Of a stretch of DNA of 41,879 nucleotides, positions 5,752 to 26,203 are shown one piece after another (position 1 is the stretch's first letter; each line of letters opens with the position of its first letter). Under the pieces are notes generated by a model. The model was given only the letters and a program-made list of their open reading frames with translations. It ran no database searches and was not told where the DNA came from. The translations under genes and the position numbers were made by a program. Location of the stretch: positions 1 through 41,879 of the IMG/VR virus record IMGVR_UViG_3300046821_000110; one strand, 5' to 3'. Source of the DNA: a virus.

Positions 5752-5765
5752 CTTGAGGATGTTTG

Positions 5766-8700
5766 ATGGCCCTTTTACCGACACTCCCTGGTATCAATGC
5801 ACCTATTGATCGTACTGAGCAAAAGTTAGACAAGTTGGAAGCTAAATCTGCTGCCAAAAAAATACTTCTTGCAGAGCGTTCTGGGATGTCGGGTGGGGCC
5901 ACAGTTCCTGATCCATGGAAAAATCATGATCGGGCTGTATTCTTGTTGGAGCAGGAAAAGCTCGCAGCAGATGCTCGTAATGAACAAGCAATTGTAAGCG
6001 ACGATGACCTGCACACGTTTTGGGGCAGTCGAACACAGGAAGGGGCTTCCATAGCGACAGGTGGTGCCCGTCTTGTTGGCGATGTAGCAAGTGCCCCGGC
6101 CACTGCATTTGCTGACGCACAACTGAGTGGTGTCAGTGATGAAATGCGGGCCTTGTATGATGTTGAACAGGGCTACAAGTCTCAAGTTGAGGGGCTGAAA
6201 TCGGCTGAAACAGCCCTACAATTCGATGTAATGTCGGGGAAACTGGGGCCAATTGAGGCTGCTGCACGTCGTTTGGAATTACGTAACCAGCAGAAAGCTC
6301 TGGTAGCCCCCGATACAGAAAAGCTAAAGGCACTAGATGTACGGCCTGAGCAACGTAATGTTGCCCAGAACCCTACTGGTGCTTTGGCCTTCGCCCCGTC
6401 TGACTATCAAGATGCGGGTCTGATTGAACAAGAACTCTCTCCTCGTGAACGTATCGAGGCGGCAAAAAACGCTTTGAAGTTCGCTGGCACTGTCGATAAA
6501 TCCATCGAAGGTATCACTGAAGGGGTGATAAACCCGCTCAAACGTGATGTCCTCAACGCCGATATGAATGCTTCGGTGGAAGCCAATAAGGCTTCATTCA
6601 CCGCAGCAAGTGCTGCATGGGATAAGGGTGATACTGGTTCTGCCCTACTCGAAACGGGTAAAGGCATTGCCGGTCTGGTTAAAGATTTTGGTGCCAATGC
6701 ACTGGATAACCCAGACGCTGCACTGGAATACATTGCAGAGAACGTACCCCAACTGGCCTTGGGTGCTGCAGGCAAAACCGGTCAGTTGATGATGGCTCAA
6801 ACCAACCTTGCCTACGGTGCAGACATCTACCGTAAAGGGTTGGAAGAATATCAAGCCAAGAATGAAGGCAAGCTGCCTACTCAAGCTGAAGCCACTGAAA
6901 TGCTTGGCTGGAGTTTGTCAGCCGCAGCTGCTGAACAGGTTGGCGACATGCTGACATTGAGTCCCTTAAAAGGGCCACTCAGTAAGGTAATGGGGGATGC
7001 GTTCACCCAAGTGAAAGCAGGGAAACTGGTAACAGCTGCCAAAGAACTTGGGCGTGTACCTGCTGCAGTAGCTTCCGGTGTTATTTCTGAAGCCCCAACT
7101 GAGGGGTATCAGACTGCAGTGGAAGAAAACCTCTCCAAGCTGAACACTGATTTCGATTTCAACACCATTGCCAAGGCAGCAGGTATTGGTGGGATCGTGG
7201 GTGGTGGATTGAAAGGTGGTATCGAAACGCTGGTACAGACCGGGGATATTGTTTCTGGTGGTGCATTAACTGCCCTAGGTAATCAGGCCGATTCCCTTAA
7301 AGACAAGGCTAAAGGTGTTGTGGATGCTGATGCAGCCAAGGTAGCGGCTTTTGAAGAGGCCAAGACCACAGGTGATGTGGATAAGCTGATCGACTTCAAT
7401 GCCGACACCTTCAACCCTACGGCTGCTATCACAGCCATGCACCACTACACCAAGACCACTGAAGACGACGTTGATCCAGAAGATTACGTGCAGTACGGGG
7501 AAGGTCTGGTTGGTGTAATGGAACAGCAACTGACTGTCAAAGAAGAAGCAGTCAAAGCCCTCCCTGAAGATGCCACTGAGACTGATCGAGAGGCACTGGT
7601 TCAGGACTTTGAAGCAACCCGGGAACAGGTTGCCAGCATGAAGCTAGCTGTAAAAAGCTGGCGTGATGAACTCAGTGGCCTGACCACTGTAGAAGACATC
7701 GACGCAGCTGTGGCCGAGGCAGATACCGACATCACCGAAGCCGATGAAACCGTTGTAGCAAAAGCCACTGAGTCCACCAGCAAAGTGATGACTCTAGCCA
7801 TGAATCGCTCCAGCAAAGTTACGCCTGAGCAGCTGGAAGCCTTGGCTTCCAACACTTCCAATGTGTTGAGTACTGAACAACGCTCTTTCCTGACCCGAGC
7901 TGCTGATGCCCGCCGTGCTATCAATGCCTTGAAGGATGTTGAAGGTGTAAGCAAGGAGGTATTCTCCGGGGGTAATGGCAACTTTGGCCTGAACGACTAC
8001 CAGAAGGACTTCGATACTGCGCACAAAACAGGTAACACCGAACAGGCTACTCGTGCTCTGAGTGAATTGACCCGGTTCACTGAAGGTCATCGTGCCAAAT
8101 TCAACCTGTTCTCTCGTGCCTTTGATGCCAGCGAAAAAGCCGGCGGTACCAAGACCTATTCGTTCCTGCCAGTGGGCAACAACACCGGTAAATGGGTTGT
8201 TGCACCGAAAGGTATGAGCTGGGATGCCGTGCGTAAAAAGGGTGGGGTAAACATCTCTGCACGGAACTCCGGCAACCTGCTCAACGCAGTAGAAATGGAA
8301 GTCAAAGCACTAGAAGCCTCGGCAGCTGAAATGTCTGCTGCTATGAAGATTGCTCGCCCTGTACGTGCTCAAGCCTCCTCTGCCACGAAGAAAGTACCAA
8401 AGCCTCTCCCGGTACAAACCCCGAAGGATGTTACTCAGCTGTCGGATGAAGAAACATCGGCACAGCCGGTAAGTGCTCCGAAGGCTGAATCGGTATCCGA
8501 AGAGTCTAAAGAGGTGGATGCCTTACAAGACCTGACATCTCGGTTGGACTCTATAAATGCTGTGGTACCCAAAGATTTGACAGACTGGGTGCGTGCTAAT
8601 GGTCGTGCGTCTACAGTAGCCTTGTTTGAGCGTCTGCTGGGTAATCCCATTATTCAGGCCATTACGGATGTACAACTCTTCACCCCTGAGAAGAACAGCA

Positions 8701-11700
8701 AACGCCCCGAAGCTGGCCTATATCACCCGAAATCTCGAATTATTCAGATCAACATCGCTGAATCTGCCCTGCGTCATCAGGCAGCAGGGCGTCAGCTGAA
8801 AGCTTCTAAAGTGGTAGACACCCTGATCCATGAGATGGTGCATGCCCTCACCTATGACCTGCTGGAAACCAATAAAGAGCTTCAGGCTCAGGTTGATCAT
8901 CTGCAACAGCAGGTACGCAACTGGATGAAAACCAAAGCGGGCAAAGCCTTGCCTGCTAATGTACGGGAACGGATAAACAATTCGTTGGAATCCCGGCATG
9001 AGTTCTTGACCTATGCGCTGACGGACAAACGCGCACAAGTGGTCTTTTCTCGCATCCCCGTAAAGAATGGCACTTCCGTACTACGTGAACTGGCAGACAC
9101 ACTGCTGCGTTTGTTGAACGAGGTGTTGGGTTCCCAAGCCGTACCGAATAGCGTACTGATTGAAGCCTTGAACCTTACCGATGAACTGCTGACCCCGCTT
9201 AACGATAAAGAATCCACCCCCCAACTGAATGCCACGTCTGACAGCTCACCAGAAATTGGGGCACTGGAGCAGAAAGAGACACCGGCAAGCCAAGATGCCG
9301 ACTTCGAGGAAGAAGTCAGTAAGGCAGAAGCAGACCTGAAAGCGGCTGAACAAAAGCAAACTGAAGAAGCAGACGCAGCTGAGGCAGCCCGCCGTACTCA
9401 ATCATGGGTAGATGGCCGTGTAGCGAAGACGGAGGCCCGCAAGTCTGATTACCTGGGTCAAACCGCAGGTGTGTTGACTGCGTTCAAAGAAGCTGTGGTA
9501 GATCGCATTACTGCTAATCTTTTCCGTGAAAAGAATCTGCTATCTGCCTACTTCAAACAGGTGGCTCAATCCCTGCATTCCACTACCCCACGTCCGTTGG
9601 TGGCAGTGTCGAATTTCATGGCCCATGTAAAAGTGGGAGACATCCTCATGGATGAGTTCCTGAGCCATGGTATGACCGAAGCTCAAGCCCCATTGGTGGC
9701 CCTGTTCATTCAAGCCCATGACAAGTTCGTGGAAACCATCAACAAGGTGATTCCCCCTTCGCTGAACAAGAAAGGGCTGCCTAACAAGGACTGGTATTTC
9801 CGTGAACCCGTGGAGTTCTTCCGTAATGAAGACGGCAAGTTCGATGCAAACTTCCTGACTGCTATGGCTGCTGGTGCCTTTGCTCTGCTGGCAGAAGAAG
9901 TAAATACCCCGATGTACCGTACCAACGAAGAAATCGCCATGATGTTGGGTCTCCCTAAAGAGACTGACGTTGGACGTGATGTGCGTAACCGACTGCGCCC
10001 TATGCTGGCCCGTCGTTTTGCTATCGAGAACAAACTCGGGCAGTTCATTACTGATTCGTTGGGCATCAAGATCAAAGACGAAAACACCCCTGTTGGTGAG
10101 TTGGAGCGTCTACGTGCCCATCTGGGTGCCCATGCCTTGAACATGCTAGTAGAGCTGAATCTCCTTCAACTGAATGAAGTAGACATTGGTACCTATGCAG
10201 GCAAGCCAGCTGATTCTGTCAATGAAGAAGACGCCTCTGAAGATGAAGGGGCTGCTGGCGATGACACCATCAACAAGTTCCGTACTGACATCTTCGTGTC
10301 AGTACCTCGTGATGGTAAGAAGCTGATCGAACCCCTGGAACGCATCAAGAGTGTGTCCAAAGGTACCGGTGGTGTACTGGCTACCCTGTTCGGTATGGAA
10401 AGTGCCCAACAGATGCCCCTGCTTGAGCCACCAAAAGTGACTCAAGAAGACACCAATGGTGGTCTTCAGAAAGTCTCCAAGTCGGTTAAGCGGGCAATGT
10501 CTAAGTTTGCCAGTCGGCAGATGTCGTTCCGTCCTGCCATGACCATGCTGATTAGTGCTGAACAAGGCTTCCTTGAAGACATTGCCGGTATCGAGAATGT
10601 CGAGAAACTGGTAATGCACGCAGAGCTGCGTGAGTCTGCTCAGGCTGCGAACGATAACCTGCGTCGTGAACTGGAACAGCTGCAAGACCTGTGGATGCAC
10701 CTGAGTGCCCTGGGCACCCCATTCCGTAACTTCTTCTCCCTGCCTGACCAGTGGAAGAATAGCCGTATCGGCTACACCGGTTCATGGGCCAACATGCAGA
10801 CCAGTAAGATCGCACGTTTCCTCGTATCCCCTGTGGGTTGGGAGTCTGAGGTGGTGATTGATGGCTCTGCCCCGAACAAGAATCAAACCAGCTTGGATAA
10901 TTTCAAGCTGCGTGTGATGGAGGCTTTGGGTGCCAAAACCGACAGTCAGTCGGATGATGTATCGCTGGCCAACTGGGACAAGATGACCAACGACTTGGAT
11001 ACAGCAAAACACATTGTTGATGCTGTAGCAGCCCTACGCCCGGTAGTAGCTCTGCCTGTTGAACAGCAGAAGCTGTCGAAAGAAGCACAGGCAACCATTG
11101 CCAATGCAGTCTTGAAGTCCAAGACAAAGCTGCACGGCTTCGAGGCATTGGTTGCTCTGGCTCAGTATGAGAACGCTAAAGCAGCAGGGGAATCCAGCTT
11201 CAAAGCCATTGTGACTTCTGAAGTGGATGGTAAGACCAACGGCCCAATGCTGAGTATGTGGCTGCTGGGTGTGATGGACAGTACCTTCGCCGCCATGGGT
11301 GGCTTCTACACGCATGTGAGTCAAGTGCGCAGCTTCGGTCAATGGAAGCCGGGTAACTACGACCTGTATGAACGCACTGCTTCGAGTCTGATTGGGCGTC
11401 TGTTGAGTCGCGGCTTTGAACAGAAGTCGCTGGACGCCCTGTTCAATCTTCTTGGTTCGCCGTTGAACGAAGACAACAGCATCTCTAAGGCTGGGCGTGA
11501 TCTGGTCAAAAATCCATTGACCACCCTCATCTACGGTTCTGGTCTGGAAACCACCGTGGAAAAGATGACCGATGTGTTCATCGAGAACGTCTACAAGACC
11601 ATGGGTCAGATCGCTGAAGGTAAAGCCTACGGTGCTCAGAAACTCACTGGTGTTGCTGCGTGGGCACAGTACCAAGAAGACCTGAAGGAGATGTCAGGGA

Positions 11701-14700
11701 TGTCTCAATACCTGTTCCCGGGTGAACTGGAACAGGCTATGGAAACACCTATGGAAGCCGCAGCACTGAGTAATCTCCGTGAAGAGTTCAAAGAGTCGAT
11801 AGGCAAAGCTGTTAAAGACACCATCAATGAAGACTTTAAGGGCTACATGGACGCCCGTAAGCAGATGGTGCGTCAGGCTAACGGTGTCTGGACTATGTAC
11901 GACATGGTTCGTACCAAACTTCTTGATGACCTCACTGAACAGCTGATGGACTGGGGTGAAATTGATTTCCAGTGGATCACTGTTGATACCGATAAAGTGA
12001 TCGGCAAAGACAAAAAAGGTCGTCCGGTATTCGAGAAAAAGAAAGTACGCCAACCGCTGCGTGAACTGACTCCAGCTGAAAAAGCTCCGGCCCTGGAAGC
12101 TATCAAGGACATGGAACCGCGCATCAACACGGCTCTGTCCAAGCGAGATGGTCAATTGGATGCTGGCATCTACGTGTCCAAGTCGGCCCGCAAAGCCTCT
12201 AACAGCCCTACCCACACCACGGATGTGAAAGGGGTGGTCAACGGTGAAAAAACCAACCACAAATCCAAACCTGTAATGCGTGTGGAGTCGAACCCAGGCG
12301 TATCCATTATGGCCAACGGTGTGCAGTCTCTCGATGGCAACACCATCGTGGAAGTACTGGCTGCCTTGAATTTGGTGGGGGTGCATGACGCTGTACTCAG
12401 TGCTCTGCATGATGCGGCTGCTGCCGGCCAAGCCATGAACCAGCAAGTGATGGATATGCTGCTGAATCACTCGCTGCCCCGTGAAAGTTACGAATCGCTG
12501 GAGCGTACTCTGAAGGGCTTCGCGGCCTACATCGAACAGAATCCGGGTGACATCAGTAAGGAAGCTCTAGGGGAACTGCTCAACTCCCAGAAAGAAGACC
12601 GTAAAGACCCCGTGTCATTTACGATTCTGGTTCAGCGTGCAGCCCGTTTTGCCCATGAAGCGGACTACAACCGTTTGGATGGTCTGAGCCAATTGGCTGT
12701 GGTGGATCAATACACCATCGCTGCTGGTATCTTCGATGTACCCAACAGCTTCAACAATCTGGCTGCCAAGAAACGGGATGCTCTGTCTCCGAAAATCGAC
12801 CCGGCTTTGTTGGCAATTGCTGCCCAGTTGGACGAGATCGTCTTTGCCAAGAAGGTTCCCGTAGCAGCAAAAACTGCTGCTAAGAAAACCCGTAGTACTC
12901 AGGTAACTGACTTCGACCTGGATGCCCTGCTGCAAACCGAGGGGATCACCGCCAATGAAGTAGCGGCCAAGCTGTTCAACAGCATTGGTACACCTCAAGA
13001 CGGTGACACCATGGGTAAGCTGTACCGGGAAATCCTGAAGCGCGGCATCAAGCAGCTCCAAGGTCTACCGATTGTCTATGCCACCTCGGATTCCCAGATT
13101 CCTGAGAAAGCCAAGGATGCCTATGGTTGGTATCACGTTGATGCTGATGGCAAAGCTCATTTGGGTATTCGTGGCACTTCCATGGGTGGGTCTGGGGTGA
13201 CTACTGAGCTGGTCGTGCATGAAATTCTGCACGCCATGGTGGCCTGGATCATTGACCAAGCTGAGAAAGGTCATGGTAGTGCTGAAGTACTGGCTGCTGT
13301 GGCTGATCTGGAAGCCCTACGTAAAGAGCTGAAGCCTCTACTGGAAGCTGAGCACAGCGAAGCAGTCAGTACCTTGCAAGAGTTCGTGGCATGGGGGATG
13401 ACCAACCCTGCTTTCCAGAAAGCCATGGCTGCTGTGCCTATGGTGGAAAAAGGTTTTGCTGCCCTGAAGAACAAGGCTCAGCAATTCTTCCGTGCCATCT
13501 CCACCATCGTGTTCGGTGTCCGTGGGCCTGCCATTGAAACCGCCCTGAGTATATTCATGGCTCGGGTATCGGTGATCGTTGGTGAGTCGGAAACCACTCA
13601 AGCAACTCAAGCACCGGGCACTTATCGTATGGCTGCCCACAACTTCAATGCTGTGGGCCTGTTCAACGGACTGGCTGCACAAGGTAACGGCTACACCGAT
13701 CCCTACCTGCAAGAGAGAGTGGCGGGCCTCATGTCTACTGTCGTGGATGCGGTAGGTGGTCCTTTCCAGCAGTTCTATCAGCAGATCGCTCAAAGCGCGA
13801 CTACCCCTGCTGGTTTGGTAGCCAATGCTCAGCAGCAGGGCTTGATGCCGGTCACAGCTGGTCTGCGTACCAGTGGCTTTGCTCTGGGTGACCAGCAAGC
13901 CTATGCGATTGAAGTGCTCACTGAGACCTTCAAGGCTATCCAACGGGACACCACAGGGGCTGCCCAACAACAACTGCTGAAGCTCTTTAAAGAGACTTCT
14001 AAGCAAGTGACTGCGGCTGATCTGGGTGGTCAAGCACAGTGGGATGCCATCTTTGGTGCTGAAGCCATCGACACCGATGGGGATTATCTGGCTCGCTTTG
14101 CTGCTATGGCTCTTGCCTACCCGCCTCTGGTGGCCAAGATGGGCTTTACCACCCAAGAGGTAGTGCGGGAGTCCACCACCCTGTATGGGCGTCTGGTGGC
14201 CTTCTTTGAGGGCATGATGAACGCACTGTCTAAGGCAGCCCACAAGGCGTATGCCGGTCAACGTGCTGATGCCAAGCTGGATACCCTGACCAAACGTCTG
14301 GTACTGCTGGAAGCTAAGTATCAGCTGCGTCAGCAGCCGTCGATGATGAATGATCTGCTAGATGGTCTGGAAGACAAACTAACCGACGTGGGTGAGTCTG
14401 CGCGTAAAAAGCTGATTGAACTATCCCAGTCCTCGTACCTGGGTGGTGCAAATAATCTGTACCTGAAAACCGCCGGCAACGTAGTCAAGATGGTGGCTGA
14501 ACAGCGTGTTGGTTACATGCTGGATAACGTAGAGAAAATCTACAACCGCTCGGTGAAGGGTCAAATGGGCATCTTGGGTTCGCTGTTCAATGAACTGCGG
14601 GGCACCCGTGACACCAACATTATGGGCCGTGCCTTGATGATCAAGAACAAGTCGCGTGAGAAAGAACGTGAGGACATCAATCGGGACATTGCGAAGTTAC

Positions 14701-17018
14701 TGGCTGATCCGTTCAAAGAACTATCCAAGAAGGAATCTGACAACATCACCAAGGTGCTGCTGCGTACTGACGTGCAGGCGCTGTGGGGCACCTTCACGGA
14801 TGTGGAAATTCGTGAGCTGTTGTCACGTCCTGCCAAGCTGAATGCTGCCATTGTCCAGTACCAGAATCAGTTGCCTGCTGCACTGAAGACCTACTACGAA
14901 AACCAATCGGACTTCACTGCATTCATGCTGGCTGTGGGCGAAGACAAGGGCGACAACACCCAGTTGAATATCCACAACATCGCTGACCTGAGTGGCACAA
15001 AACAGGCTGGCACGCTGAGCGATGTAGAGGTTGAAGCCAACATCAAAGTGTTGGACGTGTTGGTTACCCTGAAAGCCCTGAAGTTCACCAATGAAGGTGA
15101 TCGGCAGAACATGGCAAGCCTGATGCTGCGCGAACCAGAAGGCGTTAAGACGGCTCTGCTGATGCACCGTGGTCTGATGGAAAAGGCACGTACTGAGACT
15201 TTCGTGGGTACTGAGCGCCTGATGCGTAAAGGCTACGTTCCGGAGATTCACAACCCCCATGTGGAGTTGGTTCCGGTGCCAGAGGGTGCTATGGAGGATT
15301 ACATCAAGCAGGGCTACAAGTACCACTACCACTTGCCTGCTGATCCTGCTGACGTGACGTATGAGCCACGGGTACTGATGTCGGTTGAGAAGATGACCCC
15401 ACGTATTGTGTCGGGCACCTTGTCTATCACCAGCATGCAGTCTCAGGGTTCTGCAGTTCACAGCGGTCTGGAGATGTACGACTTCAGTGGGGTGAACACG
15501 TTCAACCAACACACCAATAAGCGTATCGCCAAGAAGCGTGAGCAGCATATTGATCGGTTGTTCAAGGCCCCACATGGTAAAAACCTGTTCGATATGCAAG
15601 TCACTCGGATGACTCCAATCTCCAATCCGAATGGTGAGATGGTGGGTTACCGCTACATGATGAGCCACGAAAACCGTGACATCCTCCTTGAGCGCAACAA
15701 CAACTTCGCACAAGTGCTAGCTGAGATGGCTTCTACCGTCTTCGACAAGCAAACAACCCCGGTACATAACCGTGAAGTACTGACTGCTATCAAAGATCAG
15801 TGGGAAATCGAGCAATCTGTTAATCCTGAAGCCTTCCTGTTGGTAGGTCTGGACAGTGCGGATAAGGATTTGCGTGAGCGTTACCTTGCAATCCCCTATG
15901 AAACTCGCAAAGACATTGCGCGTATCTGGGGTGATAACAACATGATGATTCGTCGTGATCTGATTGATCTGCACTTGGGATACCGTAAGGCATCTTTGAC
16001 TGATCTTCTGACCGACAATGGTAAGCATGAAGGAATAGTGAAAGACTTCTTCCTGTGGTTGGCTAAGGATGTATTCAACATCAGCCCCAAAGGTCTGCGT
16101 CGAATCCTGAAGGCTGAGAACATCATCATGGCAGTGAACCAGGAGATCAAAGACTTTTTCGTAGTGAAGTCCGGTGTTACTACCTTCTGGAACATTGTCA
16201 GCAACCTAACTCTGTTGAAGCTGTATGGGGTTTCAATTCAGGAGATTGTGCGCTCTCACAAAACAGCCCTGATGGGTGCTCGTGATTGGCAAAAGCATGA
16301 CTCAGAGCTTCGTCGCCTGAAGGCAATGAAGGATTCTGGTCTGGTCATTGGCAGTTCTTCCGAGATGGATCAGCAGATTGCTGTACTGGAAGATCAGATG
16401 GCACGGAACCCAGTCCGTGAGGTGATGATGATGGGCATGATGCCTACCATTGTGGAGGATATGGATGCAGCGGAAGACCCGTATTCATACAAGAGTTATG
16501 CAGCTCGTAAGGCTGAAAAGGTAACTCAGTACATTCCGGGTTTTGTTAAGCAGGGTGCGAAGTGGGTATATATGACCCATGACACTGGCCTGTATCAGAT
16601 CATGAGTCAGGGAGCGCAGATGAGTGACTTCGTGGCACGGTATACGCTGTTTGAACACCTGAAGACTCGGCGTAAAAATCCGCTGGCTACAGGTGAAGCA
16701 GCTATCCAAGCTATTGATGCCTTCATCAACTACGACTTGCCGTCTAACCGTTGGGTGCAGTACGCCAACGACATGGGTATCGTGCGGTTCACCAAGTACT
16801 ACTTGCGGATTCAAGCTGTACTGGCTCATCTGTATCAGAACAACCCTGCTCGGGCACTGTTCTTGGCCACCATTGAAAACTACTTCAGTGGTCTACAGAC
16901 GGTGATGGACTCTTCCTTGTGGAACCGAATCGGTTCCCCACTGGAGGGTGGCCCATTCGATGCGCTGGAAGCTATCGAAAGTGGGCTGGTAAGCCGAATG
17001 CTTGGCAAGGTGTTCTAA
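5766..17018 (+). CDS. Giant virion-encapsidated RNA polymerase (N4 gp50 type)
   Basis: 3,750 residues from ATG 5766 (GAGG seven bases upstream; a TTG at 5763 is also in frame). The centre holds a single-subunit RNA polymerase of the T7/N4 class. Around R1667 a TxxGR-like region runs into NMQTSKIARFL. Motif A is SEVDGKTNG with D1821. Motif B is R1911-x3-K1915-x7-Y1923-G1924, an exact match to RxxxKxxxxxxxYG. Motif C is GVHDAV with D2208. The spacing resembles N4 mini-vRNAP (D559, R666/K670/Y678, D951). Zincin-like HExxH motifs flank the core at 1022-1026 (HEMVH) and 2485-2489 (HEILH), each followed by an EF[LV] motif. The N-terminal arm and the C-terminal arm of more than 1,200 residues lack known motifs and probably serve packaging and ejection. 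In N4 the enzyme is injected with the genome and transcribes early genes from hairpin promoters. Confidence 0.93.
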   Translation: MALLPTLPGINAPIDRTEQKLDKLEAKSAAKKILLAERSGMSGGATVPDPWKNHDRAVFLLEQEKLAADARNEQAIVSDDDLHTFWGSRTQEGASIATGGARLVGDVASAPATAFADAQLSGVSDEMRALYDVEQGYKSQVEGLKSAETALQFDVMSGKLGPIEAAARRLELRNQQKALVAPDTEKLKALDVRPEQRNVAQNPTGALAFAPSDYQDAGLIEQELSPRERIEAAKNALKFAGTVDKSIEGITEGVINPLKRDVLNADMNASVEANKASFTAASAAWDKGDTGSALLETGKGIAGLVKDFGANALDNPDAALEYIAENVPQLALGAAGKTGQLMMAQTNLAYGADIYRKGLEEYQAKNEGKLPTQAEATEMLGWSLSAAAAEQVGDMLTLSPLKGPLSKVMGDAFTQVKAGKLVTAAKELGRVPAAVASGVISEAPTEGYQTAVEENLSKLNTDFDFNTIAKAAGIGGIVGGGLKGGIETLVQTGDIVSGGALTALGNQADSLKDKAKGVVDADAAKVAAFEEAKTTGDVDKLIDFNADTFNPTAAITAMHHYTKTTEDDVDPEDYVQYGEGLVGVMEQQLTVKEEAVKALPEDATETDREALVQDFEATREQVASMKLAVKSWRDELSGLTTVEDIDAAVAEADTDITEADETVVAKATESTSKVMTLAMNRSSKVTPEQLEALASNTSNVLSTEQRSFLTRAADARRAINALKDVEGVSKEVFSGGNGNFGLNDYQKDFDTAHKTGNTEQATRALSELTRFTEGHRAKFNLFSRAFDASEKAGGTKTYSFLPVGNNTGKWVVAPKGMSWDAVRKKGGVNISARNSGNLLNAVEMEVKALEASAAEMSAAMKIARPVRAQASSATKKVPKPLPVQTPKDVTQLSDEETSAQPVSAPKAESVSEESKEVDALQDLTSRLDSINAVVPKDLTDWVRANGRASTVALFERLLGNPIIQAITDVQLFTPEKNSKRPEAGLYHPKSRIIQINIAESALRHQAAGRQLKASKVVDTLIHEMVHALTYDLLETNKELQAQVDHLQQQVRNWMKTKAGKALPANVRERINNSLESRHEFLTYALTDKRAQVVFSRIPVKNGTSVLRELADTLLRLLNEVLGSQAVPNSVLIEALNLTDELLTPLNDKESTPQLNATSDSSPEIGALEQKETPASQDADFEEEVSKAEADLKAAEQKQTEEADAAEAARRTQSWVDGRVAKTEARKSDYLGQTAGVLTAFKEAVVDRITANLFREKNLLSAYFKQVAQSLHSTTPRPLVAVSNFMAHVKVGDILMDEFLSHGMTEAQAPLVALFIQAHDKFVETINKVIPPSLNKKGLPNKDWYFREPVEFFRNEDGKFDANFLTAMAAGAFALLAEEVNTPMYRTNEEIAMMLGLPKETDVGRDVRNRLRPMLARRFAIENKLGQFITDSLGIKIKDENTPVGELERLRAHLGAHALNMLVELNLLQLNEVDIGTYAGKPADSVNEEDASEDEGAAGDDTINKFRTDIFVSVPRDGKKLIEPLERIKSVSKGTGGVLATLFGMESAQQMPLLEPPKVTQEDTNGGLQKVSKSVKRAMSKFASRQMSFRPAMTMLISAEQGFLEDIAGIENVEKLVMHAELRESAQAANDNLRRELEQLQDLWMHLSALGTPFRNFFSLPDQWKNSRIGYTGSWANMQTSKIARFLVSPVGWESEVVIDGSAPNKNQTSLDNFKLRVMEALGAKTDSQSDDVSLANWDKMTNDLDTAKHIVDAVAALRPVVALPVEQQKLSKEAQATIANAVLKSKTKLHGFEALVALAQYENAKAAGESSFKAIVTSEVDGKTNGPMLSMWLLGVMDSTFAAMGGFYTHVSQVRSFGQWKPGNYDLYERTASSLIGRLLSRGFEQKSLDALFNLLGSPLNEDNSISKAGRDLVKNPLTTLIYGSGLETTVEKMTDVFIENVYKTMGQIAEGKAYGAQKLTGVAAWAQYQEDLKEMSGMSQYLFPGELEQAMETPMEAAALSNLREEFKESIGKAVKDTINEDFKGYMDARKQMVRQANGVWTMYDMVRTKLLDDLTEQLMDWGEIDFQWITVDTDKVIGKDKKGRPVFEKKKVRQPLRELTPAEKAPALEAIKDMEPRINTALSKRDGQLDAGIYVSKSARKASNSPTHTTDVKGVVNGEKTNHKSKPVMRVESNPGVSIMANGVQSLDGNTIVEVLAALNLVGVHDAVLSALHDAAAAGQAMNQQVMDMLLNHSLPRESYESLERTLKGFAAYIEQNPGDISKEALGELLNSQKEDRKDPVSFTILVQRAARFAHEADYNRLDGLSQLAVVDQYTIAAGIFDVPNSFNNLAAKKRDALSPKIDPALLAIAAQLDEIVFAKKVPVAAKTAAKKTRSTQVTDFDLDALLQTEGITANEVAAKLFNSIGTPQDGDTMGKLYREILKRGIKQLQGLPIVYATSDSQIPEKAKDAYGWYHVDADGKAHLGIRGTSMGGSGVTTELVVHEILHAMVAWIIDQAEKGHGSAEVLAAVADLEALRKELKPLLEAEHSEAVSTLQEFVAWGMTNPAFQKAMAAVPMVEKGFAALKNKAQQFFRAISTIVFGVRGPAIETALSIFMARVSVIVGESETTQATQAPGTYRMAAHNFNAVGLFNGLAAQGNGYTDPYLQERVAGLMSTVVDAVGGPFQQFYQQIAQSATTPAGLVANAQQQGLMPVTAGLRTSGFALGDQQAYAIEVLTETFKAIQRDTTGAAQQQLLKLFKETSKQVTAADLGGQAQWDAIFGAEAIDTDGDYLARFAAMALAYPPLVAKMGFTTQEVVRESTTLYGRLVAFFEGMMNALSKAAHKAYAGQRADAKLDTLTKRLVLLEAKYQLRQQPSMMNDLLDGLEDKLTDVGESARKKLIELSQSSYLGGANNLYLKTAGNVVKMVAEQRVGYMLDNVEKIYNRSVKGQMGILGSLFNELRGTRDTNIMGRALMIKNKSREKEREDINRDIAKLLADPFKELSKKESDNITKVLLRTDVQALWGTFTDVEIRELLSRPAKLNAAIVQYQNQLPAALKTYYENQSDFTAFMLAVGEDKGDNTQLNIHNIADLSGTKQAGTLSDVEVEANIKVLDVLVTLKALKFTNEGDRQNMASLMLREPEGVKTALLMHRGLMEKARTETFVGTERLMRKGYVPEIHNPHVELVPVPEGAMEDYIKQGYKYHYHLPADPADVTYEPRVLMSVEKMTPRIVSGTLSITSMQSQGSAVHSGLEMYDFSGVNTFNQHTNKRIAKKREQHIDRLFKAPHGKNLFDMQVTRMTPISNPNGEMVGYRYMMSHENRDILLERNNNFAQVLAEMASTVFDKQTTPVHNREVLTAIKDQWEIEQSVNPEAFLLVGLDSADKDLRERYLAIPYETRKDIARIWGDNNMMIRRDLIDLHLGYRKASLTDLLTDNGKHEGIVKDFFLWLAKDVFNISPKGLRRILKAENIIMAVNQEIKDFFVVKSGVTTFWNIVSNLTLLKLYGVSIQEIVRSHKTALMGARDWQKHDSELRRLKAMKDSGLVIGSSSEMDQQIAVLEDQMARNPVREVMMMGMMPTIVEDMDAAEDPYSYKSYAARKAEKVTQYIPGFVKQGAKWVYMTHDTGLYQIMSQGAQMSDFVARYTLFEHLKTRRKNPLATGEAAIQAIDAFINYDLPSNRWVQYANDMGIVRFTKYYLRIQAVLAHLYQNNPARALFLATIENYFSGLQTVMDSSLWNRIGSPLEGGPFDALEAIESGLVSRMLGKVF

Positions 17019-18839: not shown

Positions 18840-19240
18840 TGAGCCACCTCACCAGATGCCAAACGGCACTTCAGCTCGTAGCCCATCAGCGGCCAGATGT
18901 CGTTCTCAGCCTGACGACGAGCCGCAATGCGACCAGCCTCGGCGTCGAAGTTCTCTGGAGAAGCACAGGCCGATTTACCAGTAACGGTAAAACCGTTCTG
19001 GAGTACCAGCACACAGAAGGTCAACAGACCCAATGCTGGATCAAGTGCAGGAGGGGTGGGGTCAGTGAACGGAGGTTCTTCCACCACATAGTCCATCACT
19101 GCACAACGGCTACCTTGCAGGGCCGTGAAGTAGTGAACGCTCTTGATGTTGGCCTGAATCATCGCCGGGGTGATGCGTGGTGCATTCAACCCTTTCTCTT
19201 TGAGCATCTGCTCAAATTCAGTATCAGTTGGGTTGCTCAT
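18836..19240 (-). CDS. Gp49-like phage protein
   Basis: 134 residues. The second half matches the Gp49 phage family pattern: LLTFCVLVLQNGFTVTGKSA, CASPENFDAE, then NDIWPLMGYELK. The N-terminal half includes ITPAMIQANIKSVHYF, also typical. The family is common in tailed phages and prophages next to DUF2829 proteins, but its function is not established. It overlaps the DUF2829 gene by four bases and the upstream gene by 17, so the set is probably translated together. Confidence 0.75.
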   Translation of the reverse strand: MSNPTDTEFEQMLKEKGLNAPRITPAMIQANIKSVHYFTALQGSRCAVMDYVVEEPPFTDPTPPALDPALGLLTFCVLVLQNGFTVTGKSACASPENFDAEAGRIAARRQAENDIWPLMGYELKCRLASGEVAQ

Positions 19241-19574
19241 CAGCAGCCCCCTGATCTTCTGGTGCAGGCTCTTCTTCAGCCTCAGTCATCTGGATCGGGA
19301 ACTGTTGAAACAGGCTCACCGCGATGGAAATACCAGCACGGAAGCCAACCATCTGCTCTGCATTGAGAGTGATGATCTCACCGGTATCGTGGTCAGTGAC
19401 CTCAACCGGGATTTCCGGAGGCACGTTCATGGCGTGCAGCAGTTGGCCCATACGGTTCTGGTGCCAGCCGAGCATGTGGAATACCACTTGATCGGTTGTT
19501 TCCAGCGGGATGGGTTCCTGCGGTGGAGCGGCCTCGGGTACTTCGTGGCCATTCAGGTTTTCTGGTTCGAGCAT
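19224..19574 (-). CDS. Conserved early protein of unknown function
   Basis: 116 residues, strongly acidic at both ends (Pro/Glu-rich), with a central domain (about 27-97) containing VVFHMLGWHQNRMGQLLHAM and VTDHDTGEIITLNAEQ. A very good ribosome binding site, GAGGAG six bases before the ATG, suggests strong expression. The 3' end overlaps the Gp49-like gene. No function recognised. Confidence 0.6.
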   Translation of the reverse strand: MLEPENLNGHEVPEAAPPQEPIPLETTDQVVFHMLGWHQNRMGQLLHAMNVPPEIPVEVTDHDTGEIITLNAEQMVGFRAGISIAVSLFQQFPIQMTEAEEEPAPEDQGAADEQPN

Positions 19575-19589: not shown

Positions 19590-19799
19590 CTATTGGATGA
19601 CTCGGAGTTCGTTACGGGGAATCCACTGATCGTTGACTTTCACCGTACAACCAATGAATGCGACGTATCGCACTTCACGGTTGGTTTGGTTGCCGTACCA
19701 CGAACAGGAACCCCATGCCACAAGGCGGGTAACGAACCAAAGCAGTAGCAGGAGTAGGGCAAGACTGCCCCACACCCACTTCATCTTCGGCATCTTCAT
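19590..19799 (-). CDS. Small signal-anchored membrane protein
   Basis: 69 residues. A basic N-terminus (MKMPKMKW) precedes one membrane helix (about 9-28, SLALLLLLLWFV). A small outward-facing domain follows with Cys32, Cys51 and the pattern WIPRNELRV. Similar short proteins occur in many phages and prophages of Gram-negative hosts, function unknown. Its ATG overlaps the stop of the TerB-like gene (ATGA), so the two are coupled. Confidence 0.65.
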   Translation of the reverse strand: MKMPKMKWVWGSLALLLLLLWFVTRLVAWGSCSWYGNQTNREVRYVAFIGCTVKVNDQWIPRNELRVIQ

Positions 19800-20236
19800 A
19801 CCTGAAGGTAGTTCTCGATGCGAAGGCCGAGCATCATGCCAACATCGGTCAGCACTTTCAGCTCTTTATCGTCAATGGTGCCATCGGCCAGAGCAATGGT
19901 CAGGCCCACCAGGAACACGTCTTCGGCTTCACGGTTGTCGCCTTTAACGTCTTCGATTTCACGCATGATCTGTGACTTGCCGATCAGGAAGCCGGCGTCT
20001 TTCAGCATGGTGTTGTAGTTGTTGAAGGTTTCAGTGACTTCGCCACCAAAGCCTTTCAGTGCTGGGTTGTTGGCCAGTACTTTCTGGATTTTGTCGCCTT
20101 CGCTGACTGACAGATCACCGTCAGCCCAGCCGACTAGCAGAGCAATACCAACGGCAGCTTGCATCAGGTCACGTTTCTCGAAGTTGGTCACTTGACGGCT
20201 AACGAGTTTGGCTTTCTTTTTGAACATACCGAACAT
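19796..20236 (-). CDS. TerB-like domain protein
   Basis: 146 residues. Two helical repeats of TerB/DjlA type are visible: LLVGWADGDLSVSEGDKIQ (about 34-52) and LTIALADGTIDDKELKVLT (about 112-130). Each carries the acidic metal-binding pattern ADGxxxxxE/D. TerB domains occur in tellurite-resistance and stress systems and in phage proteins, and are thought to bind metal ions and partners. A role in phage stress response or host takeover is inference. AAAGGA lies about seven bases before the ATG. A terminator separates it from ssb upstream. Confidence 0.7.
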   Translation of the reverse strand: MFGMFKKKAKLVSRQVTNFEKRDLMQAAVGIALLVGWADGDLSVSEGDKIQKVLANNPALKGFGGEVTETFNNYNTMLKDAGFLIGKSQIMREIEDVKGDNREAEDVFLVGLTIALADGTIDDKELKVLTDVGMMLGLRIENYLQV

Positions 20237-20312: not shown

Positions 20313-21053
20313 TTAGCTGAACAGGCTGTTCTGCGGCTTGGTAGTGCCAGTGGTGGCTGCGCCGGTAGCTTTAGGGGCACCTGCAGTGCCTGCAGTTTTG
20401 GTGGACTTGTCCTTGACCTGACCAACCCACTTCTTCTTCCAAGTCTCGATGAACACCGCTTCAGGTGCTTGAGCCAGAATTTCAGCAGTGGTCTTGCCGT
20501 CGCGCTCGCGGAACAGCTTATCCAGCTCGTTCTCTTCACGAGTTTCGCCGGTCGGCTCGTACTCGCCAGTGGATTCGTTTTTCTTGGTCTTGTCCACGAT
20601 CTGCTTGATCAGACCACCGAACACTTGCTTGCCGAGCAGCTCGGTCAGCATTTCCACGTTGGTCGGCACTTCAGCTTTGGCTTCGCTGGAGTACAGGTTG
20701 ACCACCTTGGTTTCGGTTTCCAGTTGGGCAATTTCTTTACCCACGGTCAGCAGGCACAGGCTGTTGGCCATGTTGAAGCCCGGCAGGTATTGCTTATCGC
20801 CGTTTTTGTCCACGTAGAAGTTCTTGCAGCCCTTGGCTTTGCCAGAGGTCATCCAGAACTGCTGACGGACATCTTTACCGTCTTCGGTGGTCAGGTGAAC
20901 CACAAGTGACAACGCCTCGCTGTCAGCCTTCTGCAGATAGGCCAGCTTGACGGTGAAGTTGTAGAGGTTGGTGTCCAGAACGAAACCACCACCTACCGAG
21001 TCTTTTTCGGAGGCGATGTCGTTGGAGGTAGCGAGGCTGGAGAGCAGAGACAT
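20313..21053 (-). CDS. Single-stranded DNA-binding protein (N4 gp45 type)
   Basis: 246 residues, close to the 265 of N4 SSB. The N-terminal part (about 20-120) alternates hydrophobic and polar residues like an OB-type beta barrel (NFTVKLAYLQKADSEALSLV). A helical region follows. The last 35 residues are a Lys/Thr/Gly/Ala-rich linker ending QNSLFS. Identification rests on length, layout and its place in the N4-type replication block. In N4 this protein coats replicating DNA, aids recombination and activates late transcription by host RNA polymerase, for which its extreme C-terminus is needed. AGGAAA precedes the ATG. The SLFS tip is shared with two other proteins in this window. Confidence 0.8.
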   Translation of the reverse strand: MSLLSSLATSNDIASEKDSVGGGFVLDTNLYNFTVKLAYLQKADSEALSLVVHLTTEDGKDVRQQFWMTSGKAKGCKNFYVDKNGDKQYLPGFNMANSLCLLTVGKEIAQLETETKVVNLYSSEAKAEVPTNVEMLTELLGKQVFGGLIKQIVDKTKKNESTGEYEPTGETREENELDKLFRERDGKTTAEILAQAPEAVFIETWKKKWVGQVKDKSTKTAGTAGAPKATGAATTGTTKPQNSLFS

Positions 21054-21083: not shown

Positions 21084-21815
21084 TTAAGCGTAGTAATGGT
21101 GCAGACGGTCAAGAACCATCTGCATATCGTTGTCCATGTAAGTCTCTTTGTTTTCAAAGAGGCCCATGGGGCCGCGCAGACGTTCGGAGACAGTCTCCTT
21201 GGTCAGCTTGGTTTGGAAGACGTATTTGAAGCCGAGGGCTTCGTCTTCCGGAGAGATGTTCAACATCGGGTTGGCGTAGTCCTTCAAGGACTTCAGTGCC
21301 ACCTTTTTGCTGGCGATCACGATGGAGAAGAACGATTCCAGACCAACACCTTTCAGTGCGCCTTTGATCGGCACGTAGGTCTCCATGACCATCTCGGACT
21401 CGTTGATGTCCGATTTGGTGTGAGCAATGAAGATCACGTTCTTGGTCGAACGGGCAACGTACTGTTGCATCAGGTTTTTGCAGAACTGGGCATAGTTGCC
21501 CCATGCCTGCATGGTGTTGGTGGAGGGGATCACGTAAACCGACTCGTACATTTCCATGAGGAATGTCAGAGAATCCACGACGATGGTGTGGATTTCAGGC
21601 TTGGTCTCGGCATGATCGAATGCCTCGTAGACCTGAAGCGGATCGGTGATGGTGAACTCCTTGAACTTGGAGCGGAACGGCAGTTTCTTGCCGGCTTCAC
21701 AGTTCAGGTACATCACCCCTTCAGGGTTTTTCAGCTTGGACAGGCTGGCCGATTTACCGGTGGCAGACTTGCCAACGAGCAACACAAGGTTGTCGTTCAC
21801 TTGAGATTGAGACAT
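21084..21815 (-). CDS. RecA-like P-loop ATPase (Sak4 / N4 gp44 type)
   Basis: 243 residues. Walker A is GKSATGKSASL (G15-S22) and Walker B is HTIVVDSLTF (D81). After that, VIFIAHTKSD provides the sensor-like polar strand of RecA cores. Short, single-domain RecA-like ATPases encoded beside SSB belong to the Sak4 group, which works with SSB in strand annealing and recombination. AAGGAAG lies eight bases before the ATG. A likely virion-polymerase hairpin promoter starts transcription only about 23 bases upstream, so this gene heads its own transcript with ssb behind it. Confidence 0.85.
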   Translation of the reverse strand: MSQSQVNDNLVLLVGKSATGKSASLSKLKNPEGVMYLNCEAGKKLPFRSKFKEFTITDPLQVYEAFDHAETKPEIHTIVVDSLTFLMEMYESVYVIPSTNTMQAWGNYAQFCKNLMQQYVARSTKNVIFIAHTKSDINESEMVMETYVPIKGALKGVGLESFFSIVIASKKVALKSLKDYANPMLNISPEDEALGFKYVFQTKLTKETVSERLRGPMGLFENKETYMDNDMQMVLDRLHHYYA

Positions 21816-21833: not shown

Positions 21834-21856
21834 TTCACCAACCGCCCGGAGGGCGG
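21834..21856 (-). promoter_or_regulatory. Putative virion-RNA-polymerase hairpin promoter
   Basis: On the plus (template) strand TTCACC and AA are followed by stem CCGCCC (21842-21847), loop GGA and stem GGGCGG (21851-21856). N4 promoters have a 5-7 bp stem, a three-base purine loop, and a template C about 11 bases from the loop centre. Here that base is C21838. Transcription would run leftward, beginning GGTGAA, into the RecA-like ATPase gene. The same flank and loop occur at 26181-26203. Confidence 0.72.
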
Positions 21857-21872
21857 CTGATTCTACTGAGAA

Positions 21873-21894
21873 AGGGTCTTCGGAAGAAGACCCT
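21873..21894 (-). terminator. Hairpin terminator after the primase-helicase gene
   Basis: A 9-bp perfect stem (AGGGTCTTC with GAAGACCCT), four-base loop. On the minus strand it is followed by TTTCTC, a weak T run. It lies just before the hairpin promoter of the next unit, so it probably separates two transcripts. Confidence 0.6.
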
Positions 21895-21899
21895 AATGG

Positions 21900-24080
21900 T
21901 TACGGCTGAGCTACTGCTTGAGCCTTCTTCACCAGTGCCTTACCAACGGTGACCATGATCGAGTTCATGATCTCCATTTCATCCAGCTTGTCAGCTAGCT
22001 TGTCATTGAGGTTCAGCACACGTTGACGAATGGTTTCGTAATCGTGGCCGGTGTCCACCATGATGTAGGCATAGCGCAGCAGCTGATTGTTACGGTTGCC
22101 GTCACCAGTGTTGGTCATCACCCAGCGTTCCAAGCTATCCATGGAGTGCAGAGTGTTCATCTGGTTCTTGCGATCCTCGTTCTTGCTGGTCTTCGGAATG
22201 AAGGGCAATACGTCAAGGAGCTGACCGTCGGTGTATTCACAGTGACCGTTATGGCTCAGCCATTTACGGGCTACCTGCCCTGTCGATTCGTCCACCTTGA
22301 AAGGCATCCACTCGAACAGGTTGGACATGAACTCCTTGTAGTCCTTGGCGTCGAGCTTCAGCTCGAAGTTGGTTGGCAGGATGATCCGGAAACGATCCGT
22401 TGCAGGCTTGTTGGCTTCAGCCACCTGATGACGCTTGGTGGTGTAGTACAAGGCTTTGTAGTCCTTGAGCAGCAGCTTGGCCGTGTTGAGGCTGACCTCA
22501 CCGTCCACGTCGATCACCACCATGTTGAAGCCGGGGATGTAGTTGTCCCCGTTACGGTAACCATCCTTGAGGTGGTGAGCTACCCAGTGAAGCCCTTGGT
22601 TCTGGGTGAGCTTGGTCAAATGCTCGAAGGGGGCATAGTCGTTGTTGAAGCCAACCGTAATGTCGCCACTGTAGCTGACGATCATCTTTTCCAAGTCGGT
22701 CTCTTTCAGCGACTCACCACGCAGGAACTCGATCCCATCGTTGAAGGCTTTCTTGATGATGATGTTGTTCTTGTAGCCATAGGCAATGGCCAGTGTGAGC
22801 ATTTCCTGCTTCTGGCTCGCAGAGCCTTTGTAAAACGGCAGGTCTTCTACCAGATCAGCCTGAGTGACTTCCATGCCGATGTTGGCCAGATACTTGGCCA
22901 GCTTCACATACGGACGATCACGCGCCAGCATGCGATTGAACGCCTCACCGGAGTCCTCTACCAGTTTGATGGCGTTGTACAGGTGAGCTTCAGTCAGCTC
23001 GGGGCTGTCGTCCACGAACGCATAGGCACCTGCCAGTTTGAGAGCCTTAAAGTAACGGTGACTCAGCTCAGCCTTTTGCAGCTCGTGGTGTTCACCAAGC
23101 TCTTCTGCATCACGCTCGCACTGCAACTTGTATTCGATCATCAGCAGGGCTGTGGCCTTACTCATGACCAACTTCTTGTTGGCATTGATGATGTTGGCCA
23201 ACGATTCCAGTTTGTCAGCGAGATCGCTTAGGAACTGGTTATTCGTGGTGTTTGTCATCACGTCGAATACTTGTTGTGCCGTGACGCTAAGGTCTTTCGA
23301 CGCTTTTTTCAGGTAGCCAAACAAGCAGCGTCGGGCATAGCCGGTCTCCAACATTTCCATCAGGTGCTGCTCAGTAACTGCACCGTCAAACAGCTTGGAC
23401 GGTGTACCGAATAGCATCATGTTGGTTGGAGTCATGCCCCGAATTTCTTCGTGGCGATGGCTGTCGGAGGTGGATTTAACCAACTTGGTCTTGACCTTAC
23501 CCTTGTCGTACAACTCAAGGAATGTGGTCAGCACCTCAGTGTTGCCCATCATGTTGGAGCCGATTTCGTCGATCTCCAGATTGACCGAGCCGGCATTGGC
23601 CATCAGCAGCTTGTGACGCATCTGCTTCACAGCCGGCGAAGTGCCGGAGTCAAAACTGAACAGCAGGTTACCCAGACTGTCGAACTCTTTGGTGACACGC
23701 ACCAATTCTTCGTCGGGGTCAGTCTGCTTGCGAGTGGCCCGCTTGTGGGCAATCTGAGGCAGGTTACGTTCAGCCATCACCGGAAAGGTCTCTTCCAAGA
23801 ACCGTTCACGGAATTGGGACATCACCTCGTCTTCAATGATCGACGTGGAGAAGCCCTTACCAGTGCCTGACGGCGACAGGTTGATGGCATACAAGTTGAC
23901 CGGAATGTCACCCCGATCAGGGGTGGCAATGATGCAACGCATCTGGGCAGCGGCCACCGCCCATGTGTAGCCCACCAGTACCCGGAAGAACAACGGTTCG
24001 GTGTTCTGTGTCCGTGAACAAAGCAGCTGAACCAGCTGCTCTGAAGTAGGGTGGTATTCCATTTGGGATACAGGAAGCAT
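21900..24080 (-). CDS. Primase-helicase with N-terminal ATPase and C-terminal AEP-like domain (N4 gp42 type)
   Basis: 726 residues from ATG 24080, chosen because AAGGAG lies six bases upstream; a TTG at 24101 is in frame but would overlap the nuclease gene. The N-terminal half is a P-loop ATPase with Walker A SPSGTGKGFS (about 70-79) and Walker B NLEIDEIG (D171/E172), like the DUF3987 helicase-related proteins. The C-terminal half has MVVIDVDGE (D524, D526), then YYTTKRHQ, then TDRFRIILP. This order is the DxD, xH and following strand pattern of archaeo-eukaryotic primases. It should prime and unwind DNA for replication. ATPase before primase reverses the usual order of fused primase-helicases. 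The primase call is inference. Confidence 0.75.
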   Translation of the reverse strand: MLPVSQMEYHPTSEQLVQLLCSRTQNTEPLFFRVLVGYTWAVAAAQMRCIIATPDRGDIPVNLYAINLSPSGTGKGFSTSIIEDEVMSQFRERFLEETFPVMAERNLPQIAHKRATRKQTDPDEELVRVTKEFDSLGNLLFSFDSGTSPAVKQMRHKLLMANAGSVNLEIDEIGSNMMGNTEVLTTFLELYDKGKVKTKLVKSTSDSHRHEEIRGMTPTNMMLFGTPSKLFDGAVTEQHLMEMLETGYARRCLFGYLKKASKDLSVTAQQVFDVMTNTTNNQFLSDLADKLESLANIINANKKLVMSKATALLMIEYKLQCERDAEELGEHHELQKAELSHRYFKALKLAGAYAFVDDSPELTEAHLYNAIKLVEDSGEAFNRMLARDRPYVKLAKYLANIGMEVTQADLVEDLPFYKGSASQKQEMLTLAIAYGYKNNIIIKKAFNDGIEFLRGESLKETDLEKMIVSYSGDITVGFNNDYAPFEHLTKLTQNQGLHWVAHHLKDGYRNGDNYIPGFNMVVIDVDGEVSLNTAKLLLKDYKALYYTTKRHQVAEANKPATDRFRIILPTNFELKLDAKDYKEFMSNLFEWMPFKVDESTGQVARKWLSHNGHCEYTDGQLLDVLPFIPKTSKNEDRKNQMNTLHSMDSLERWVMTNTGDGNRNNQLLRYAYIMVDTGHDYETIRQRVLNLNDKLADKLDEMEIMNSIMVTVGKALVKKAQAVAQP

Positions 24081-24090
24081 GGGGTACTCC

Positions 24091-25083
24091 TTAAACGTCA
24101 AGATCGCCAGAAGCGATCAAGTCCTGTGCCTGCTTGCAGACCGGAAAGGCTGGACAATAAAGGCATGCTTTAGCCTTACCGGGGATTTCAACGACACGCC
24201 CGACGTTACCGTCCTGAGCCATACGGAGGTATGCCTCTTGCTTGTCATCGAAGTTCTTGGTGGAACGCCCGCCCTTGGCAATGGCTTCGGGGTTCTTGTA
24301 ATACTTCCACGCTGGTTCAGATCGCCACAGCTCTTCATCCGTGCAACGAGGTAGCTCGTCTTGAGGAGCATCGAAGAATTTGTCCATCAGGCTCAGGCGC
24401 CCACGGATGAAGTTCTCAGTCTCAGATAGAGACATCAGCTCCAGTTTCCGTTCCAGAGTCCGCTGCTGTGGGTAGTTCGGGTTGGCCCGGGCCATGGCTG
24501 CTGACCAGTCAGTGAAAATGAACTGGATAGCCATGACCGGCGAAGTGATGATCTTCGGGTTGAGCCAACGGTAAATGGAACCTTGCAGGATGTAGTCTTT
24601 GTCTTTGGTGTTGTTCATCCATGTGAACACTCCGGTGGACTTGAAGTCCTCCAGACGACCATCACCTACAAAGTCGTATTTACCCGACACCTTGTAGCCT
24701 GCGATTTCTCGCATGCTGCGCTGTTCCAGATAGACCGGAATGTCCCCTTCCTTGAGGGTGTCTGGATCAGGATTAACCTTGATCCGGGCAATCAGCGATT
24801 CCGGATAGCCCATCTTGGCCAGAGCCTTACTTGGGTCATTGACCCACGAACGCTCGATAGCATCATGCAGAGCACTACCCATACGGGATTGGGTCAGACT
24901 GACCACTTCCACAAGGTCTTTACCGAATGGCACTCGATGAGCCAGTGCCAGTTGACGTATCGGCTTCAGCAGGGAAGTAGCCGAAATGGTTTTCTCCCCT
25001 GACTGATAGTCGTAGTTGTCAGTAGCCAGAAACACTGCCATGGACAACGGTACGTTTGCATTGTTGGTGTATTTACGACGCAT
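24091..25083 (-). CDS. Cas4/RecB-like PD-(D/E)XK nuclease with iron-sulfur-type cysteines
   Basis: 330 residues. An early helix has the His of RecB-type nucleases (MGSALHDAIERSW). The catalytic core is SGKYDFVGDGRLEDFKST, giving the D and the DxK of the PD-(D/E)XK motif. One cysteine in LPRCTDEELWR plus three near the C-terminus (ACLYCPAFPVCKQA, spaced C-x2-C-x5-C) match the four-cysteine iron-sulfur clamp of Cas4 and AddB nucleases. It would resect DNA ends for recombination with the RecA-like ATPase and SSB, or degrade host DNA. Its stop lies 11 bases before the primase-helicase start. Syntenic with the gp43 region of N4, though equivalence was not tested. Confidence 0.85.
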   Translation of the reverse strand: MRRKYTNNANVPLSMAVFLATDNYDYQSGEKTISATSLLKPIRQLALAHRVPFGKDLVEVVSLTQSRMGSALHDAIERSWVNDPSKALAKMGYPESLIARIKVNPDPDTLKEGDIPVYLEQRSMREIAGYKVSGKYDFVGDGRLEDFKSTGVFTWMNNTKDKDYILQGSIYRWLNPKIITSPVMAIQFIFTDWSAAMARANPNYPQQRTLERKLELMSLSETENFIRGRLSLMDKFFDAPQDELPRCTDEELWRSEPAWKYYKNPEAIAKGGRSTKNFDDKQEAYLRMAQDGNVGRVVEIPGKAKACLYCPAFPVCKQAQDLIASGDLDV

Positions 25084-25686: not shown

Positions 25687-26109
25687 TTAAGGTTGGAGTT
25701 CTACTGGTTCGCTTCCTGCTATCTTCGCCAGATGCCGATGGATCATCGTCATGGCTAGTTTGGTTGCCTTGATGTACTTCTGAGCCTGACGCTGCTCAAT
25801 GTTCATCAGCTTCATCACTTCACGAGTGTTGATCATCTCAACACATTGCAGAATGTTGTAGAGCCTTGAGGCGCTTAGCGGGACAGAATTTCCATAATCC
25901 AACCGCACAACACCCTGAATGATGTCGTCTACCCAACAAGTTGGATGCCCAATCTCTTTGTCTTGCATAAATGCCAGAAGACCATTGGGTATGTTGCGGG
26001 AGCGTGGCTGAGGGGATGAGTCTGCGATGTTGGCATAGCGGATTCGATCTACTCCCGCCTTGCCCAAACGGGCACACAACGTAGGCATTTGGTCGATGGG
26101 GTAGGTCAA
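25687..26109 (-). CDS. Putative DNA-binding early protein, first gene of the replication operon
   Basis: 140 residues from a TTG start at 26109; AGAAGGAG lies eight bases upstream, which decides this start over the first internal ATG. The C-terminal third, TREVMKLMNIEQRQAQKYIKA, has the look of a helix-turn-helix. The N-terminal part contains SRNIPNGLLAF and a Trp-Asp-Asp segment of unknown role. As the first gene behind a hairpin promoter it may be regulatory or replicative. Function unproven. Confidence 0.6.
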   Translation of the reverse strand: MTYPIDQMPTLCARLGKAGVDRIRYANIADSSPQPRSRNIPNGLLAFMQDKEIGHPTCWVDDIIQGVVRLDYGNSVPLSASRLYNILQCVEMINTREVMKLMNIEQRQAQKYIKATKLAMTMIHRHLAKIAGSEPVELQP

Positions 26110-26180: not shown

Positions 26181-26203
26181 TTCACCAAGCGCAGGGACTG
26201 CGC
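26181..26203 (-). promoter_or_regulatory. Putative virion-RNA-polymerase hairpin promoter
   Basis: On the plus (template) strand TTCACC and AA are followed by stem GCGCAG (26189-26194), loop GGA and stem CTGCGC (26198-26203). Layout, loop and flank equal those at 21834-21856. In N4 the hairpin lies 3' of the start on the template strand, so transcription would run leftward from C26185/26186, beginning GGTGAACC, into the replication operon. A second pairing, ATTACAGG (26173-26180) with CCTGTAAT (26223-26230), encloses the hairpin. Confidence 0.75.

Follow-up and report, generated by a model that had tools for sequence, protein, structure and literature searches.

Two DNA hairpins stand ahead of the replication genes of an N4-like phage, and we predict that they are promoters of a second, non-early class, most likely read by the heterodimeric middle RNA polymerase RNAPII, a reading in which our confidence is just short of even. 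Both are template-strand hairpins that keep their pairing in relatives while their sequence changes, and they belong to one of two hairpin classes that divide by genome region. The window (the whole stretch of DNA analysed, 41,879 nucleotides) is a 41.9-kb fragment assigned to Schitoviridae by gene content. DNA-hairpin promoters are known from the virion RNA polymerase (vRNAP) of phage N4 and have been thought to be confined to the genes that enter the cell first. If true, a family-wide second class preceding middle and replication genes would reveal how such phages switch polymerases, and would let promoters be mapped across many genomes by sequence only.

Hairpins ahead of the replication genes

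The features considered here are as follows (window coordinates).
5763–17018, plus strand: giant virion RNA polymerase (vRNAP), 3751 codons from the first TTG; catalytic K437/R440 conserved
20313–21053, minus strand: single-strand DNA-binding protein (SSB), downstream of Sak4 in the site 1 unit (PHROG 743)
21084–21815, minus strand: Sak4-like single-stranded DNA annealing protein, first gene past site 1 (PHROG 124)
21834–21856, plus strand: site 1, predicted template-strand hairpin promoter (sequence, single-stranded DNA fold, relatives); TTCACC 21834–21839, AA, CCGCCC 21842–21847, GGA 21848–21850, GGGCGG 21851–21856
21873–21894, minus strand: terminator-like hairpin right after the primase stop, separate from site 1 (sequence; arrangement repeated in L003/L004)
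21900–24101, minus strand: DNA primase, N4 gp43-like, the anchor for finding relatives (PHROG 2135)
24091–25083, minus strand: exonuclease, N4 gp42-like (PHROG 2139)
25687–26109, minus strand: small conserved gene, first past site 2, TTG start with AGAAGGAG ahead (PHROG 3360)
26181–26203, plus strand: site 2, predicted template-strand hairpin promoter (sequence, single-stranded DNA fold, orthologues); TTCACC 26181–26186, AA, GCGCAG 26189–26194, GGA 26195–26197, CTGCGC 26198–26203

The flank, 6-bp stem and GGA loop that the initial annotation described at 21834 and 26181 are exact at both positions, and the two stems, unlike in sequence (CCGCCC/GGGCGG and GCGCAG/CTGCGC), are each perfectly paired. 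Searching the whole record for TTCACCAA-N6-GGA, a check proposed at that stage, returned these two sites only. The 8-mer TTCACCAA by itself is weak evidence because it occurs five times in the record against 2.15 expected, a count near chance, and it was rejected as a stand-alone signal. The combination of flank, stem and loop at both sites is not due to chance; two 6-bp, 3-nt-loop hairpins with a common 8-nt flank and loop appeared in 0 of 60 dinucleotide-preserving shuffles of the window. The description of the sites as a matched pair proved too narrow, as complete relatives have several such sites (up to ~8 in G008).

Single-stranded DNA of either strand folds stably at the two sites, with folding energies of -7.4 (site 1) and -6.8 kcal/mol (site 2). 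Each site has a template-strand inverted repeat with a stem in the 5–7 bp range and a 3-nt loop, as in N4-type hairpin promoters, and a C for +1 is present ~11 nt from the loop centre; structurally, an N4-type hairpin promoter is the probable and well-supported reading. The predicted leftward +1 falls at ~21838/21839 and ~26185/26186, and the N4 register (loop centre at -11) leads to the same predicted starts, C21838 and C26185, as had been put forward. The proposed orientation also holds, with template-strand hairpins ahead of leftward genes at both sites, as does the N4-like architecture (on the transcript strand, GAG-7 bp-TCC-7 bp-TTGGATGAAG at N4 promoter P2 and GAG-6 bp-TCC-6 bp-TTGGTGAA in the window). 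A sigma-70 promoter was rejected, -35/-10 hexamers being absent from either site.

Both sites are located in a leftward replication island that encodes a Holliday junction resolvase, SSB, the Sak4-like annealing protein, primase, exonuclease, ribonucleotide reductase and ThyX, and whose right border is formed by rightward tail genes. With tail genes standing between it and the early and middle genes, the island needs promoters of its own; the layout of replication island and tail genes is the same in LIT1 and LUZ7. Site 1 is 26 nt from the Sak4 gene, which would receive a leader of ~23 nt with AAGGAAG, and SSB is next. Site 2 is ~80 nt ahead of the small conserved gene, which is followed by the exonuclease and primase. 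The island also contains a member of PHROG 632, a "tellurite resistance" family (19796–20236), and a Mu Gam-like end-protection protein is encoded near SSB (19224–19574).

We infer promoter activity along the following lines. At each site the template strand would extrude the 6-bp GGA-loop hairpin, to which a phage-coded RNA polymerase of the T7 family would bind, and leftward RNA would start ~10–11 nt from the loop centre, with GGUGAA or GUGAA. Site 1 would then serve the Sak4-SSB unit and site 2 the exonuclease-primase unit.

Pairing is kept in relatives while stem sequence changes

Relatives were drawn from 79 loci found by a primase search. Across LIT1/LUZ7-like Schitoviridae the hairpin family reads, on the transcript strand, (C/G)AG-6 bp-TCC-6 bp followed by TTGGTGAA (the window, L004 and G013) or TTCTNCGA (many others). 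Close relatives retain both hairpins with drifting flanks. Site 1 is conserved in L003, L004 and L060, and site 2 has orthologues in L004, G013, L047, LIT1 and LUZ7, where the stem ahead of the same gene reads GCGCAG (window, L004), GGGTTC (G013), GGTAAC (L047) or GCCCCT (LIT1). The compensatory stem changes that were to be looked for in the relatives' gaps were therefore found, with pairing kept and stem identity varying.

Among 21 aligned copies, covariation was 0.767 against 0.171 when shuffled, with all six pairs altered on both sides. Because only copies with ≤2 mismatches were admitted to this set, counts from sites picked without regard to pairing are the cleaner test. A perfect 6-bp stem was present in 11 of 29 distinct TCC-N6-TTCTNCGA sites picked by sequence only (chance ~0.007) and in 4 of 8 TCC-N6-TTGGTGAA sites picked likewise. 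None of the fully paired copies among these picks depended on G-U, and several of the other copies had a TCCG loop of 4 nt or the wider CTCCG(T).

The hairpins also follow strand and position. GGA-loop hairpins in the primase-search loci favoured the template strand fourfold (97 vs 24 on the other strand), and in 20 genomes the hairpins numbered 71 on the template strand vs 12 on the other. In regions chosen solely by Sak4 homology, a hairpin was present at ~30 of ~63 loci, mostly 18–64 nt before the start. Longest-ORF gene calls wrongly placed some intergenic sites, including the window's own, within genes; the counts were therefore built on annotated genomes, homology anchors and strand. Collection scans with 14-base patterns were discarded, as they gave mostly chance matches (4 of 239 perfectly paired).

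Loop variants were also observed. The near-identical contig G002 (G002/L060) has a GTA loop at site 2 (G002:12696) where the window has GGA, a natural variant at -11, the base contacted by N4 vRNAP. In the primase-Sak4 gap of the L005–L022 group, the loop is TCCG, TTCG or CTCCG(T) and the stem is shortened, with the TTCTNCGA tail kept.

Two hairpin classes by genome region

Hairpins were classified in 16 complete or near-complete genomes of the window phage's lineage. Class E was defined by a 5-bp stem and a transcript-strand T[ACT]C loop, followed by 4–5 nt and TGG; class M is the GGA-loop, 6-bp class of middle and replication operons. Class E fell in the early region in 13 of 14 cases, with 0 on the other strand, and class M comprised 32 hairpins outside the early region and 2 inside it, with 4 on the other strand. 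In relatives, class M begins just after the middle-polymerase gene RNAP2, and it is also found ahead of gp24, gp25, DNAP and rIIA, strand-matched to the next gene. The reading we favour on this sequence comparison is that DNA-hairpin promoters include a second class, a middle one, beside the early class. The early region, DNA polymerase, RNAP1 and RNAP2 are absent from the window, whose own early hairpins are hence out of view; the near-identical contig G002 reaches only part of the DNA polymerase gene, and no closer relatives containing the early region were found.

As a control, scanning N4 recovered P1, P2 and P3 (at 97, 566 and 4555) and no hairpin around the primase or gp44. In LIT1, the scan found GTA hairpins preceding genes 12 and 13, which correspond to two of three published predictions (PMC3715699), and saw none ahead of gene 1. 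The GGA hairpins of LIT1 are all past RNAP2: two just downstream, a third deeper in the middle region, a fourth in the divergent gap that precedes the exonuclease module, and a fifth between primase and Sak4. LUZ7, KPP21 and Littlefix show the same split, with GTA loops early and GGA loops right after RNAP2 and later. For this split Fisher's test gives 1.6e-4 on 5 and 12 sites. In a comparison of early and later hairpins, -9C with -8G/A occurs in 10 of 12 early vs 6 of 42 later ones (p=1.7e-5). Both p-values are descriptive only, because the class rules came from the data they are tested on and the sites share ancestry. Later hairpins favour -6G and -4G in place of -9C/-8R. GGA hairpins ahead of RNAP1 in G010 and G005 fit class E poorly. 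In phiA41 (L083/L084), three early hairpins (52611, 52974 and 58304) have template-strand TAT loops with -9C -8G and are apparently another early-promoter dialect.

Predicted promoters with 3-nt-loop hairpins have been described in the same virus family for LUZ7/LIT1 (PMC3715699) and Pectobacterium phages CB1/CB3/CB4 (PMC6027278). The accessible portions of these two papers give three early hairpins only and make no mention of GGA hairpins past RNAP2, ahead of the exonuclease module or ahead of Sak4. Searches of the open literature yielded no description of hairpin promoters beyond the early region.

Assignment of a polymerase

The vRNAP of N4 contacts the -9C loop-closing pair and -8G of its promoters, and vRNAP alone can act in the early region. 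Its hairpin promoters occur in the early region only, and a review confines them to the left end of the genome (PMC4496689). The sites were initially annotated as vRNAP promoters like P2, and part of this stands. Template hairpin and orientation agree, and the window sites share with N4 P1–P3 a 3-nt loop, a short A-rich spacer, CC at the start and a short leader. The loop has the 5'G..A3' form with a central purine at both sites, being GGA as in P2/P3. What is not supported as stated is the assignment to vRNAP: N4 P1–P3 have 5–7 bp stems with -9C -8G and lie only in the early region, whereas the window sites have a 6-bp stem with -6G, carry -9C -8C (site 1) or -9G -8A (site 2), so that neither combines -9C with -8G/A, and precede replication genes, while relatives possess a separate early class.

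Reading by vRNAP is nonetheless a substantial possibility, if not a likely one. Its promoters would have spread, in the window lineage, from the early region to a replication island that tail genes of opposite orientation isolate from the early and middle genes. N4 P2/P3 share TTGG starts as well as GGA loops with the window, the window tail TTGGTGAA resembles that of P2 (TTGGATGAA), and early-positioned GGA hairpins are seen in G013, G010, G005, G011, G012, G016, G019, DSS3phi2 and JWAlpha; vRNAP is also the sole polymerase with proven hairpin recognition. The initial annotation named the giant polymerase of the window as the reader. The gene is indeed present, but its role as reader is not supported as stated. 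Within single genomes, early hairpins differ from later ones in loop, tail and stem bases; the residues aligned to N4 K114, R119, W129, D901 and R904, which contact the hairpin, show no conservation in the window's vRNAP, though the alignment is of low similarity and too weak to be decisive; and a cell receives only about four copies of vRNAP (PMC4496689).

Two hairpin codes in two regions would most simply mean two polymerases, with class E serving vRNAP and RNAPII reading class M, the marker of middle and replication operons in LIT1/LUZ7-like Schitoviridae. RNAPII is the most likely reader because class M is non-early and separate from the class E of vRNAP. RNAP1, the small RNAPII subunit, carries a 35–40 aa N-terminal insertion in the window phage's lineage (e.g., L384:5891-6823) that is absent in N4, JWAlpha and DSS3phi2, all without class M. 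In exonuclease-Sak4 regions, class M was absent from these three and from Paxi, Ebordelon, BUCT194, RHph_X3_15 and Erwinia S6; the last has a short RNAP1 (268 aa) and a Sak4 nearer to the window's than that of LIT1 is. The insertion may point to RNAPII as the class M reader, as a lead and not as proof; both it and class M follow phylogeny.

The middle promoters of N4 RNAPII (gp15/gp16) drive middle and replication genes, a position that the window sites fit, but they are described as AT-rich from -7 to +2 and without hairpins (PMC4496689), whereas the window sites are GC-rich hairpins. For this reason, and because the window tail resembles P2, vRNAP stays a strong rival; judged by the two hairpin classes, it is an unproven reader and a slightly less probable one than RNAPII. 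More broadly, and more tentatively, many Schitoviridae may use two hairpin codes, an early one for the injected vRNAP and a middle one for heterodimeric RNAPII. If so, DNA-hairpin recognition would not be unique to vRNAP, and gene timing would be written in hairpin shape and loop. The two-class idea is open to test in the cultured Pseudomonas phages LUZ7, LIT1 and KPP21.

Readings other than a promoter

An RNA-level element between operons, acting as an intrinsic terminator or mRNA-end stabiliser, is unlikely. In some relatives the loop is TCCG or TTCG, either of which makes a stable RNA tetraloop, several relatives carry GCGCC-TCCG/TTCG-GGCGC followed by TTCTT, and one copy lies just after RNAP2, at the end of the early genes. 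Against this, no T run follows the stem (TTGGTGAA, TTCTNCGA or TCCATGA), a terminator scan calls neither site, and copies paired only via G-U are lacking. The hairpin also occurs in divergent gaps (LUZ7, LIT1 and G010), where there is no upstream transcript to terminate, and true T-tract or strong terminators adjoin the motif in L034, L054, L073 and the window, where the hairpin at 21873–21894 reads AGGGTCTTC-TTCC-GAAGACCCT-TTCTC on the transcript strand. A Rho-independent terminator was rejected, as neither site has a GC stem with a T run. A role in replication or recombination instead of transcription, as a single-strand origin or protein-binding site, would suit hairpins that border replication genes and fold when the DNA is single-stranded, but is very improbable given that the same class is found, strand-matched to the next gene, ahead of gp24, gp25, DNAP and rIIA and after RNAP2.
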